Origin: Actinomycetes bacterium
GTDB taxonomy: Bacteria > Actinomycetota > Acidimicrobiia > Acidimicrobiales > RAAP-2
Assembly: GCA_021815645.1 (NCBI GenBank)
Contig: JAKBAB010000003.1
Span: 1 to 53,048, forward strand
Direction: 5' to 3'
DNA: 53,048 nucleotides
The translations under genes and the position numbers were made by a program. Shown piece by piece: positions 35,639 through 41,706 of the stretch. The notes beneath the pieces are model-generated. The model had not been told where the DNA came from and did not search any database. It saw only the letters and a program-made list of their open reading frames with translations. The stretch's first letter is position 1, and each line of letters starts with the position of its first letter.

Positions 35639-36408
35639 CGCTCTTTCGCTCACCACCCAAACGTTCGAACGCCGTGGCGCCAGCGTTTTACGCCACGCCG
35701 CGCCTGCTACGTCAAAAGCGTGCGCGAGAGTGGTGGACGCTGTTGCACCCGCCCTACACCGCTATGCACCTATCCTTCGTCGTTATCGGCGGGTGCCTCG
35801 TGGGCCCGGTAAGCGCGACGCGCCTCGCGGCGTCGCTCGGGGCATTCTTTCTCGCCGTGGGCGTCGGTGCTCACGCCCTGGACGAACTGCACGGTCGGCC
35901 CCTCGCCACGAAGCTGGCGACGTGGCAACTTACTGCGGCGGCCGTGGCCGGTCTCGGGGGGGCCGTAGCCCTGGGCGTGGTGGGCGCCACCGTAGTGGGC
36001 GCCAACCTCTTAATCTTTGTCGCCGCCGGCGTCACGCTCGCGCTTGGTTACAATCTCGAACTCTTCGGTGGTCGACTTCACCGTGACCTCATCTTCGCCT
36101 TAAGTTGGGGGGCCTTTCCCGTCTTGACCGCCTACTTCGCCCAACACTCGCGGCTCTCGCTCACCAGCGCGCTGGCCGCACTCTTCGCCGCGTTCGCCTC
36201 CCTGACGCAACGCCGTCTCTCCTCCCCGGCCCGAGAACTGCGGCGGCGAACGCGCACTCTAGACGGAGTACGAACCCTCAGTGATGGCACCGAAATGACG
36301 ATCACGCGCGCTTCGGTGCTCGAGCCGCTCGAAAGGGCGCTGCGCTCACTGTGCTGGATGAGTGTCGCCCTGGCGTGCACGTTTTTACTTCTGCGATTTC
36401 ACCCTTAG
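35635..36408 (+). CDS. Polytopic membrane protein (possibly UbiA-like)
   Basis: A 257-residue protein with about seven hydrophobic segments. HPPYTAMHLSFVVIGGCLV near the N-terminus and VGAHALDELHGRP recall prenyltransferase-like (UbiA-superfamily) membrane proteins, although the classic NDxxDxxxD motif is not present. TTG start overlapping the UbiE-type stop implies a shared role, plausibly in quinone or isoprenoid metabolism. Function is inferred from context only. Confidence 0.55.
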   Translation: MTLFRSPPKRSNAVAPAFYATPRLLRQKRAREWWTLLHPPYTAMHLSFVVIGGCLVGPVSATRLAASLGAFFLAVGVGAHALDELHGRPLATKLATWQLTAAAVAGLGGAVALGVVGATVVGANLLIFVAAGVTLALGYNLELFGGRLHRDLIFALSWGAFPVLTAYFAQHSRLSLTSALAALFAAFASLTQRRLSSPARELRRRTRTLDGVRTLSDGTEMTITRASVLEPLERALRSLCWMSVALACTFLLLRFHP

Positions 36409-36499
36409 CCGGCCCCAGCGACCACTTTCTTTGGGGGGCACGCCCTCGGGAGCCGAACTCGTCGACGCCTATGCTCGGGTTGGTACGAAGAGGGGTGAC

Positions 36500-38137
36500 G
36501 TGTCCACAGAGAGTGCCCGTGACATCTGGCGTCGCCAGTTCGACGGGGCCGAGTTACGATCGGGTCCCTTCACGACCATGTCGGGAATACCCCTAGAGCC
36601 GGTGTACGGGCCGCCCGAGGGAGAGTTTCCGGGACTCTTTCCCTACACCCGAGGCGTCCACGCGTCGATGTACCGAACCAAGTTGTGGACTATGAGAATG
36701 TTCGCCGGCTTCGGCACGGCCCTAGACACCAACGCCCGATTTCGCCAAATAGTCGGAGCGGGGGCGACCGGACTGTCAACCGCGTTCGATATGCCCACGC
36801 TCTTAGGCCTCGACTCGGACGACCCGCTCGCGCGCGGCGAGGTGGGTCGCTGCGGCGTCGCCATCGACTCGCTCGCCGACGTCGACGACCTTTTCCGCGA
36901 CATAGACCTCGGCGAAATATCGACGTCGATGACGATTAATTCCCCGGCGGCGGTCATGCTCGCGCTCTTCGTCGCCCACGCCGAGAAGTCCGGCGTCGCG
37001 CGCCGCCGCCTCTCCGGGACACTGCAAAACGACATACTCAAGGAGTACCAGGCCCAAAAGGAGTTCGTCTTCCCACCGCGTGCGTCGATGCGCCTCGTGC
37101 GCGACACTATGGCGTTCGCCGCTTCGGACATGCCCAGGTGGAACTCGATCTCGGTGTCGGGCTATCACATCCGCGAAGCGGGGTCCACGGCGGTGGAGGA
37201 GTTGGCCTTCACGTTGGCCAACGGTTTCGCGTACGTAGAGCTCGCCGTTCGCGCGGGGCTCGCCGTCGACGACGTTGCACCGCGACTGTCGTTCTTTTTC
37301 AATGCGCACATTGACTTCTTCGAAGAGATCGCGAAGTATCGAGCGGCCCGACGTCTGTGGGCCACGTGGCTACGCGATCGATACTCAGCGCGCGACCCCC
37401 GTTCGTGGCAACTGCGCTTTCATACTCAAACCGCGGGTGTTTCGCTCACCGCACAGCAACCCGACGTCAATACGGCGCGCACCGCCATCGAAGCGCTGGC
37501 GGGCGTCCTGGGTGGTACGCAATCGCTCCACACCAACGCCATGGACGAAGCCCTCGCACTGCCTTCGAAGAAGGCGGCTCGTATTGCCCTGCGCACGCAA
37601 CAAGTTATCGCGCACGAAACCAACGTAACGAACGTCGCGGACCCCCTAGGGGGTTCTTGGTACGTCGAAGCGTTAACCGACGAAGTCGCTCGCGAGGCCG
37701 AGGTGATCTTCGCCACGATTGACGAGATGGGTGAAGGATCCATGCTCGACGGGTGCATCCGGGGAATAGAGGAGAACTGGTTTCAAAGACGCATCGCGGA
37801 CTCCGCGTACGACCTCGAACGGTCCTTTAATCGCGGTGAAAGAATCGTGGTCGGGGTTAACGAATTTCTAGAAGGTAACGACGACGAAGTGGCGACGTTG
37901 CGCATCACCGACGACGACGAGCGTCTTCAGGTCGCTCGCCTCGACGCCGTCAAACGGGCCCGTAGTAGCGAGAGCGTCGCCGAGACGCTCCATCACCTTA
38001 GGGTTGACGCCTCGGACCCCGAAGTCAACCTGATGCCCCCACTCATTGACGCGGCGAGGGCCCACGCGACCGTAGGCGAGATGATGTCGGCCCTGGTAGA
38101 CGTGTTCGGCCGCCACGTGGAAGTACCCACCCTGTGA
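36500..38137 (+). CDS. Methylmalonyl-CoA mutase-type large subunit
   Basis: Catalytic TIM-barrel subunit of a B12-dependent acyl-CoA mutase, 545 residues. Motifs: [59 protein letters not shown] and [47 protein letters not shown]. The split large/small layout is shared by archaeal-type methylmalonyl-CoA, isobutyryl-CoA and 2-hydroxyisobutyryl-CoA mutases. At the position of the MCM substrate Tyr (RGPYATMY) this has His (RGVHASMY), so the substrate is uncertain. The ORF track start is 46 codons early; GTG at 36500 has AGGGG upstream. Small subunit overlaps by GTGA. Confidence 0.85.
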
Positions 38138-38514
38138 GTACTCGCGTCCTCGTGGCCAAAGTTGGCCTCGACGGGCACGACCGGGGCGTCAAGGTAGTCG
38201 CTCGGCTCCTGCGCGACGCCGGCATGGAAGTGATCTACACGGGACTCTTTCAAACCCCGGAGACGGTCGCGGCCACGGCCGTCGACGAAGACGTAGACGT
38301 CGTGGGGATTTCGATGTTAAGTGGAGCCCATATGACGCTCGCCCCCCTGGTGGTAAGGGCTTTGCGCGAGCGCGGTTCGAGCGCTCCGCTCGTGCTGGGC
38401 GGTATCGTTCCCCCGGGCGACGAAGCGGAGCTACTTACCCTCGGCGTCGCGGCGGTCTTCGGACCTGGAGCCAGCGGTGGCGACATTGTGAGAATCATCG
38501 AATCGCTCGCCTAG
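38134..38514 (+). CDS. Methylmalonyl-CoA mutase-type B12-binding small subunit
   Basis: Cobalamin-binding subunit, 126 residues. It carries the lower-ligand motif DxHxxG (LDGHDRG, about residues 13-18), plus [10 protein letters not shown] and LGGIVPPGD of the Rossmann-like B12 fold. It partners with the large subunit encoded just upstream; the start codon overlaps that gene's stop, so stoichiometric production is expected. Confidence 0.92.
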
Positions 38515-38602
38515 GGAATCCGATGGGTCACCGCGCCGACGTAGCGCGACGGCACGGCCTCGAAACTCTAGGTAGAGTCGATCCGGAGAGGGAGGGGAGA
38601 GC

Positions 38603-39022
38603 ATGTTAAAAGGATTCAAGACGTTTCTCATGCGTGGGGAGCTGATCGTCATTGCCGTGGGTTTGGTCGTGGCCCTCGCCTTTAGTACGTTGATTGCTTC
38701 GTTCACGACCAACGTCATCGAACCGCTAATAAACGCCCTCGCCGGATCGACTTCGAAGGGCCCGGGGCTCGGTTGGCACCTCAACGGACAGTTCATCGCT
38801 CTGGGGGCCTTTATCGCGTCCATCGTCTACTTCTTGGTCTTCATGGCCGTGGTCTACTTCGTTTTGGTGGTCCCGTACCGTAGGTATATGGCGCGACAGG
38901 GCACGGCCGTGTTCGCCGCCCCCACGCCGCCCCCCGCGACTCAGACGTGCCCCCACTGCCTGAGCGCGGACCTGCCCGCGGGTGCGACCAAATGTTTGCA
39001 CTGCGCCAGCGAACTCGGCTAA
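38603..39022 (+). CDS. mscL: MscL-type mechanosensitive channel with C-terminal zinc ribbon
   Basis: The N-terminal MLKGFKTFLMRGELIVIAVGLVVALAFSTLIASF and second helix AFIASIVYFLVFMAVVYFVLVVPYRRY are the two membrane helices of MscL, which opens on hypo-osmotic shock. After a Pro-rich linker (residues 105-113) there is a CxxC-x11-CxxC zinc ribbon (C116, C119, C131, C134), not part of canonical MscL. Total 139 residues. It is preceded by GGAGAGGGAGGGGAGAGC, a rich ribosome-binding region. Confidence 0.82.
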   Translation: MLKGFKTFLMRGELIVIAVGLVVALAFSTLIASFTTNVIEPLINALAGSTSKGPGLGWHLNGQFIALGAFIASIVYFLVFMAVVYFVLVVPYRRYMARQGTAVFAAPTPPPATQTCPHCLSADLPAGATKCLHCASELG

Positions 39023-39207: not shown

Positions 39208-41706
39208 ATGAACGGGCCAAGGAAATCGCACGACGGACCCGCCTTCGCTGGCGAAACCGAACCGGGAGTTGCGGCCCCCGCGCTCTATCGCGCCGCGCTA
39301 CTCGACGCACTGCTCAACAACGAACACGTGGGGGTCGCCCTGCTCGACCGGGAGTACCGCTACCTCTTAATCAATGACACCCTGGCGGAGGCTCACGGTC
39401 TCTCGGTGGCCGCGCACCTAGGTCGTGAGATGAGTGAGGTCGTGCCCGAACTATGGCTTACGGTGAGAGACGCCGTTCACGGTGCCCTCGAGGGGCGCCC
39501 AACGACGGACTTAAACGTAACCGAGGTGCCGCTCGACCAGCGCCGTGGCGAAAGAAGTTGGCGCGCGAACTACTACCCCATCTTCGTGGACGGCGCGGTC
39601 GCCGCGATTGGTTGCGTCACCCACGAAACGACGGACATCTTCGCGACGGAGAGGGCCCTGCGCCAACGCAACAATCTCTACCGGATGTTGGCCGAGACGA
39701 GTCGGGTCGCCACGAGCGCCCCTTCGACCAAAGAACTTTTCCGCGAAGTCTGCGATATCGCCGTCGACGTGTGCGGCTTCGCCATGGCTTGGGTCGGGGT
39801 TCGCCACGATCTTCGAGTCGACGTGGCCACCTACGCCGGGGCCGGGGCCTCCTACCTGAACGACCTCGAACTGTCGTTGGCCACCAGTTCCCCGCACTCT
39901 CGCGGCCCCGTCGGTCAGACGTTTCTAACCGGACACCACGTGGTGGTCAATGACTTTTTGACGTCGGCGGCGACGGCGCCGTGGCGAGAGTTAGCGACGC
40001 GCGTCGGCTTCGAGGCGGCGGCCAGTTTTCCTATACGCGAACGGGGCGTCGTGGTGGCGGCCCTGACGGTTTACTCCGCGCAGTCGGACTATTTTTCTCC
40101 CGACGTCGTCGAGACGCTTTCGGAGATGATGCCCGCGCTGTCGCGCGCGCTCGACAATTTCGCCGACGCGAGCCGACGTCGCGAGGACGAAGCGCAGTTA
40201 CGAATAAGGGACCGGGCCTTGGCCGCCATTACCCAAGGAATCGTCCTGTGTGACGCGACCGATCCCGAACTGCCCATCACCTACGCCAGTTCAAGTTTTC
40301 GCCACCTCACGGGCTACGAATACGACGAGGTCGTCGGTAGAAACTGTCGCTTTCTTCAGGGGCCCGACACCGACCGAAACGTCGTCGCGCGCCTTAGAAC
40401 GGCCCTCGAACTCGGGCGGGCGTGCTCGGTGGAACTCCTCAACTACCGCAAGGATGGCTCCACCTTTTGGAACAGCCTGAGCCTCTCACCGGTGAGGGAC
40501 CCCACGGGTCGCGTTACTCACTTCGTCGGCGTTCAAACCGACGTGACAGCTCGCCGTACCCTCGAGCGCCAACTGGTCCAGTCCCAACGACTCGAAGCCC
40601 TCGGGACACTGGCGGGGGGCATCGCGCACGACTTCAACAATATGTTGATGGTTATCCGCGGGTACAACCAAATTTTATCTCGACGACACCTCGACGACGA
40701 CCTTAGTGACGTAACGCGCCGCATTGACGACGCGGTTCAGCGGGCCGCTGACTTCACCCGACGGCTCCTCGCCTTCAGTCACACCCAAGTCCTCAATCTC
40801 GAAGTCACCAACGTCAACGACCTCGTGCGCGACGTCGTTCGTCTTCTCGAGGGCGTCATCGGCGCTGACGTGAGGCTCGAACTCGACCTCGCCGATCAGA
40901 TACCCACCTTGATGATCGACCGCGTCCAGCTCGAACAGGCGGTCCTCAATCTCGTGACCAACGCCCGCGAAGCGATGCCGTCGGGAGGGACACTGCGCGT
41001 CACTACCCAGGTCGTGGAACGAAACGGCGACGACGACCAAGTAAATCCCGCTTTTGGCACCTGTTTGAAACTGGCGGTTTCGGACACGGGAATTGGCATT
41101 AGTGACGCCGCCCGGGACCGCGTCTTCGAACCGTTCTTCACGACGAAGGCGATGGGCTCAGGTCTCGGACTTTCGGCCGTCTATGGTTTAGTTCGCCAGA
41201 GCGGCGGAGAAGTGTCGCTAGAGAGCCGGCGCAACGAAGGCACGACGTTCTCCCTCTTCTTCCCCGTGGCTCCACTCCCGGAAACTATTCCCGAACCACC
41301 GATGGCGCCGGTTACCTCCTTACTGGGCAGTGAGGTCGTCCTAGTCGTCGAAGACGTCGACGAAGCGCGGTCCCTGTTGGCCCAATACCTGCGCGAACTG
41401 GGCTACGTCGTGTTCGACGCGCCCAGCGGCTGGGACGCACTTAAGTTCGCCAAGGATACACCCCGAGTCGACTTCCTGGTCACCGACGTGATCATGCCCC
41501 TCATGAGTGGCCCCGAACTCGCCGAGAGCGTGATGGAGCTATTTCCCGACCTCCGCATTGTCTTCACCTCGGGGCTGCCCTCGTACGACCTGACGCACCG
41601 GCGACGTTTCGAAGGTCGCTCTTCCTTCATCGAAAAACCCTTCCTCTTCGCCGCGCTGGCGAGCTCTCTGAGGCGGCTCGTGCCGGCCGACGACGCGACG
41701 CCGTGA
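39208..41706 (+). CDS. LOV-domain hybrid histidine kinase with receiver
   Basis: An 832-residue sensor. Residues about 30-150 form a PAS domain, 160-320 a GAF domain, and 340-450 a LOV-type PAS with GRNCRFLQGPDTD (photoactive Cys380), NYRKDGSTFWN and GVQTDVT, the FMN-binding residues. A HisKA domain follows (GGIAHDFNN, His474), then the ATPase (NLVTNAREAMP, DTGIGIS, GSGLGLSAVYG) and a receiver domain (VVEDVDEAR, Asp in LVTDVIMPLMSG, Lys in IEKPF). It should sense blue light, via flavin-Cys adduct formation, and phosphorylate its own receiver. No transmembrane segments. No partner regulator is adjacent. Confidence 0.9.
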   Translation: MNGPRKSHDGPAFAGETEPGVAAPALYRAALLDALLNNEHVGVALLDREYRYLLINDTLAEAHGLSVAAHLGREMSEVVPELWLTVRDAVHGALEGRPTTDLNVTEVPLDQRRGERSWRANYYPIFVDGAVAAIGCVTHETTDIFATERALRQRNNLYRMLAETSRVATSAPSTKELFREVCDIAVDVCGFAMAWVGVRHDLRVDVATYAGAGASYLNDLELSLATSSPHSRGPVGQTFLTGHHVVVNDFLTSAATAPWRELATRVGFEAAASFPIRERGVVVAALTVYSAQSDYFSPDVVETLSEMMPALSRALDNFADASRRREDEAQLRIRDRALAAITQGIVLCDATDPELPITYASSSFRHLTGYEYDEVVGRNCRFLQGPDTDRNVVARLRTALELGRACSVELLNYRKDGSTFWNSLSLSPVRDPTGRVTHFVGVQTDVTARRTLERQLVQSQRLEALGTLAGGIAHDFNNMLMVIRGYNQILSRRHLDDDLSDVTRRIDDAVQRAADFTRRLLAFSHTQVLNLEVTNVNDLVRDVVRLLEGVIGADVRLELDLADQIPTLMIDRVQLEQAVLNLVTNAREAMPSGGTLRVTTQVVERNGDDDQVNPAFGTCLKLAVSDTGIGISDAARDRVFEPFFTTKAMGSGLGLSAVYGLVRQSGGEVSLESRRNEGTTFSLFFPVAPLPETIPEPPMAPVTSLLGSEVVLVVEDVDEARSLLAQYLRELGYVVFDAPSGWDALKFAKDTPRVDFLVTDVIMPLMSGPELAESVMELFPDLRIVFTSGLPSYDLTHRRRFEGRSSFIEKPFLFAALASSLRRLVPADDATP

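Follow-up and report, generated by a model that had tools for sequence, protein, structure and literature searches.

A five-helix bundle closes the cytosolic side of the E. coli and M. tuberculosis MscL channels. The mscL gene carried by the window, by which we mean the whole 53,048-nucleotide stretch of DNA that was analysed, encodes a short tail with four cysteines at the corresponding place. The question raised by this locus is what the tail is, whether it stands in for the bundle and what it might do there.

An MscL channel with a Cys4 tail

The features of the gene are listed in the table. Residues 1-99 of the protein matched the Pfam MscL profile PF01741 with 79.1 bits against a cut-off of 27.4 and are predicted to fold into the expected N-terminal helix and two transmembrane helices, which makes the protein a member of the MscL family. 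The NCBIfam MscL models also matched (best E 1.2e-22), yet under their equivalog cut-offs. The body has the same N-terminal helix, TM1, loop and TM2 as M. tuberculosis and E. coli MscL, and Foldseek matched it to solved MscL structures, with M. tuberculosis MscL 2oar at the top (E 2.6e-5). An earlier note, made from the DNA letters, had described two MscL helices followed by a Pro-rich linker, and this is borne out by the Pfam match and by a linker that contains APTPPPATQ. It had also placed cysteines at 116, 119, 131 and 134, where the translation has them. This gene is the one MscL in the window's genome, which is 86.5% complete.

Features of the mscL locus, with positions in the window
Feature	Position	Strand	Basis or remark
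MscL gene with zinc-ribbon tail	38603..39022	+	ORF, 139 aa plus stop; Pfam MscL E 4.6e-22
Likely ribosome binding site, purine-rich gagagggaggggag	about 38587-38600	+	directly 5' of mscL
MscL channel body, residues 1-99: N-terminal helix, TM1, periplasmic loop, TM2	38603..38899	+	Pfam, AF2 helices, Foldseek
Pro/Ala-rich linker, residues 100-115 (GTAVFAAPTPPPATQT)	38900..38947	+	translation
Predicted Cys4 zinc ribbon, residues 116-134 (CPHCLSADLPAGATKCLHC)	38948..39004	+	Cys conservation, pLDDT, Foldseek
Changed TM1 gate region, residues 16-24	38648-38674	+	D16V, V21L, G24A vs M. tuberculosis MscL

The tail reads C116-X2-C119-X11-C131-X2-C134, that is, the two CX2C knuckles with four conserved cysteines of a Cys4 zinc ribbon. 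The earlier note's reading depended on the tail being present in homologues and on its cysteines being conserved; both were checked, and all four cysteines are invariant across 28 homologues of 50-69% identity. Within the window's own clade, A128 and S121 likewise never vary, and P117 and K130 hardly do. The cysteine pattern is also rare by chance. A CX2C-X8-16-CX2C pattern within the last 45 residues occurs in one of the 189 stop-to-stop frames of at least 100 codons in the window, mscL alone, and it arose in 8 of 200,000 shufflings of the tail nucleotides. The cysteines after TM2 were counted in 228 distinct MscL proteins, a set enriched for ribbons: there are none in 92 proteins and four or five in 136, and no protein has one to three; the missing class is independent of having searched for four. 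The channel body is free of cysteine in 194 of the 228, and the spacing between the knuckles in ribbon MscL is 10 residues in 105 proteins and 11 in 31. A chance origin of the cysteine pattern was rejected on the homologue conservation, these all-or-none counts and the frame and shuffle tests.

The Pfam zinc-ribbon models remain under their curated cut-offs for the window protein alone because the tail is too short, with Zn_Ribbon_1 giving an E of 1.2 for the whole protein and 0.013 for the tail. Among 75 relatives, matches at an E of 1 or less were found to UPF0547 in 65, DZR in 51 and Zn_Ribbon_1 in 23, and these families have the CPxC...CxxC spacing in common with ribbon MscL. An NCBIfam scan of the same 75 relatives returned general MscL models only and none separating the ribbon form. 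The open-licence literature yielded no account of MscL carrying a zinc ribbon; subscription papers may have one.

A single-chain AF2 model, run on 75 ribbon MscL sequences with a predictor that places no metal, gave helices at residues 2-9, 12-46 and 67-99 of the window protein. The ribbon was modelled with a pLDDT of 89-91 (90 for the tail alone), while the loop and the linker were less confident (pLDDT 66 for the block 101-110). The Foldseek PDB matches of the ribbon were Cys4 zinc ribbons or knuckles, among them RadD, NZF/RanBP2 fingers, ribosomal L40e and MetRS. Single E-values were about 1 because the 28-residue fold is tiny, and the match thus rests on the consistency of the hits. The RadD zinc ribbon (7r7j) and the RanBP2/NZF fingers have the same 28-residue Cys4 fold, at an rmsd of 1.1-1.8 A to the model. 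RadD is a DNA-repair helicase and the RanBP2/NZF fingers are eukaryotic, and we claim no sequence homology between them and the MscL ribbon. The tail is therefore predicted to have a ribbon fold.

Two neighbours of mscL can be recorded. Directly upstream (36362-38514, + strand) lie genes for a methylmalonyl-CoA mutase large subunit and a separate B12-binding subunit, for which no tie to the channel was seen. Just downstream (39208-41706, + strand) is a hybrid histidine kinase with GAF, PAS, HATPase and receiver domains. Its PAS has a LOV-like GRNCRFLQGP motif, and thus the kinase may be a blue-light sensor.

Replacement of the helix tail and its history

The C-terminal helix of MscL has been called generally conserved (PMC6167328). 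Its LTEIRDLL motif, present in M. tuberculosis and E. coli MscL, is absent from the window protein, which has the Cys4 ribbon there. No protein among the 228 combines the ribbon with the helix motif, and only 8 have neither. The two kinds of tail are also similarly placed, with a median linker of 15 residues before the ribbon and 18 before the helix, and a similar median of 8 residues after the module. The LTEIRDLL helix is usual for the family rather than defining: Methanosarcina acetivorans MscL is without the bundle, like the window protein, but is described as lacking the domain wholly (PMC6167328), whereas the window protein has a substitute module.

The history of the exchange was followed on a quick tree of MscL bodies, with the tail left out (95 columns). 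On this tree, ribbon and helix must have switched 28 times, which is far below the 67 obtained with shuffled labels but still many; strongly supported branches force just 5 of these switches. A tree with all ribbons together was rejected in an AU test (p-AU 0.005). On this basis, and within the limits of the model used and of a quick 95-column tree, we rejected the view that MscL gained the ribbon once and never exchanged it afterwards. From these counts and the AU result, the ribbon tail has been inherited within clades yet exchanged several times. MscL bodies that differ greatly, from two phyla, carry the same ribbon tail. The mutual exclusion, the similar linker length and the interchange on the tree give strong support to the earlier note's claim that the C-terminal helix bundle has been replaced by the ribbon. 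This substitution is genuine and old, and it occurs commonly in at least two large phyla of bacteria.

Distribution and the TM1 gate region

For the prevalence of the ribbon, matches to PF01741 and to a tail profile in one and the same set of genomes were joined by position. In a sample of species representatives, where some MscL matches are contig-end fragments, the ribbon is present in 39 of the 90 MscL genes of the window's order (about 43%) and in 90 of the 131 (69%) of a second phylum, that of genome G530 (putatively Acidobacteriota). A curiosity restricted to one clade was rejected, as the ribbon is common in both groups. A general membrane tag was rejected as well, strong matches to the ribbon profile in the window's genome and its kin being nearly all on MscL. 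The 28 relatives of 50-69% identity came from a genome-wide protein search and belong to Acidimicrobiaceae, other Actinomycetes, Streptomyces, Streptacidiphilus and Mycobacterium. In 18 of their 28 genomes (Acidimicrobiaceae and other actinobacterial MAGs, and several Mycobacterium) the ribbon form is the only MscL found with PF01741, and it can thus serve as the only channel of its kind. Streptomyces and Streptacidiphilus have both a ribbon MscL and a helix-tailed one, and Streptacidiphilus also a third MscL; keeping both forms together hints at non-identical roles. Carriage on plasmids or phages was rejected, with one case on a Kitasatospora plasmid and none on a phage.

Some unusual cases were encountered. 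A 3.6-kb contig (L037:1-3625) of a genome labelled Acidobacteriota carries an actinobacterial-type ribbon MscL. That genome has a ribbon MscL of its own as well (L175), and the gene on the 3.6-kb contig may reflect transfer or a misbinned contig. Two very divergent MscL-like proteins with the ribbon (L230 and L232) have the loop TFAYWLRETQWEKWTYWQ. Their genomes encode an ordinary ribbon MscL too, and the two proteins possibly form a further MscL subfamily. In two more loci (L146:1-1401 and L150:1-1401) the MscL tail is of a third type, weakly DUF4177-like (E 0.005 and 0.05, under cut-off).

The window protein lies within a supported clade (98) of 37 proteins, all of which have the ribbon. This clade also differs in TM1, at positions 16, 21 and 24, which correspond to D16, V21 and G24 of M. 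tuberculosis MscL in an ungapped alignment of this part of TM1. At position 24 all 37 have Ala, compared with Gly in 167 of the 183 other proteins with a ribbon or a helix; residue 21 is Leu in 36 of 37 and elsewhere mostly Val or Ile; and residue 16 is mostly Val, otherwise Thr, in place of Asp. V21 is the hydrophobic gate residue of M. tuberculosis MscL (PMC10244533), and the substitutions suggest that the window's clade has a changed channel gate. Other ribbon MscL proteins mostly keep the ordinary TM1 residues at these positions, therefore the ribbon does not require the gate change. Both the window-type MscL and the general ribbon type occur in the window's own genus, in different species.

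Possible roles of the ribbon

With the sequence, its conservation, the exchange with the helix tail and the predicted fold established, we infer the pentamer, the zinc occupancy, the position under the pore and the role as follows. The reading to which we give slightly better than an even chance is an ordinary tension-gated valve in which the C-terminal bundle has been replaced in place by a permanently zinc-loaded ribbon. The channel would be the cell's tension-gated emergency release, a putative pentamer in which TM2 of each of the five subunits would lead through a short flexible linker to a small cytosolic Cys4 zinc ribbon. Zinc would most likely be held permanently as a structural ion, and the ribbon would form a compact knob near the cytosolic pore mouth. 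There it would do the presumed job of the bundle, stabilising or tuning the channel and limiting what passes. The bundle has been proposed to be a sieve and stabiliser (PMC5722894); when it is truncated, MscL still works, with tension sensitivity and conductance altered and with an effect that differs between species (PMC6167328). By this analogy, tuning or filtering is a likelier task of the ribbon than gating. Since the ribbon is globular and the same coiled bundle is impossible, an equal position need not mean an equal role.

That MscL works without its C-terminal domain (PMC6167328) would also suit a stability or folding cap, in which the ribbon shields the C-terminus from proteases or aids folding and leaves the channel properties unaffected. 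The ribbon does sit at the extreme C-terminus, but the strict retention of four cysteines over a large divergence, and the alternation of the tail with one specific module rather than its loss, make a cap quite unlikely. The main rival, unlikely as it is in our estimate, is a docking module: by binding a protein or RNA partner in the cytosol or the membrane, the ribbon would tether the channel, localise it or regulate it. The nearest folds in Foldseek include small binding fingers. NZF/RanBP2 fingers bind ubiquitin, Ran or RNA. The invariant A128 and S121 and the near-invariant P117 and K130 exceed the needs of a bare zinc site, and docking is also favoured by the paralogues of both kinds in Streptomyces. 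Against this, a conserved operon partner was rejected, none being evident in the window-type loci compared (a noisy output that included shadow ORFs), and since the same tail is on very different bodies in two phyla, a docking partner would have to be equally widespread.

The earlier note had further supposed that the tail couples gating to zinc, redox state or a partner, and for this we found no support, with neither a conserved neighbour nor a signature of metal regulation. In a zinc- or redox-regulated gate, loss of zinc or oxidation of the cysteines would change opening. Four conserved cysteines in the cytosolic part of a channel with a mostly Cys-free body are what such a gate would call for, but the all-or-none cysteine pattern suits a structural zinc site equally well or better. 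Cys4 ribbons as a rule hold zinc very tightly. No recurrent metal transport or redox gene was seen near mscL, no experiment on such a gate was found in the open-licence literature, and we regard it as very improbable.

The structural ribbon thus remains our preferred reading. A broader one, which we hold tentatively and as the less probable, is that ribbon MscL is a differently regulated channel: there would be two widespread and repeatedly exchanged forms of MscL, with the tail recruiting a partner or setting the gating tension, and the window's clade would add a changed TM1 gate. If this were true, the textbook architecture would cover only part of natural MscL diversity. In nature the bundle has been swapped several times for an unrelated zinc ribbon, and these natural tail swaps, together with genomes that hold both forms, such as those of Streptomyces, offer a direct test of the role of the cytosolic domain.
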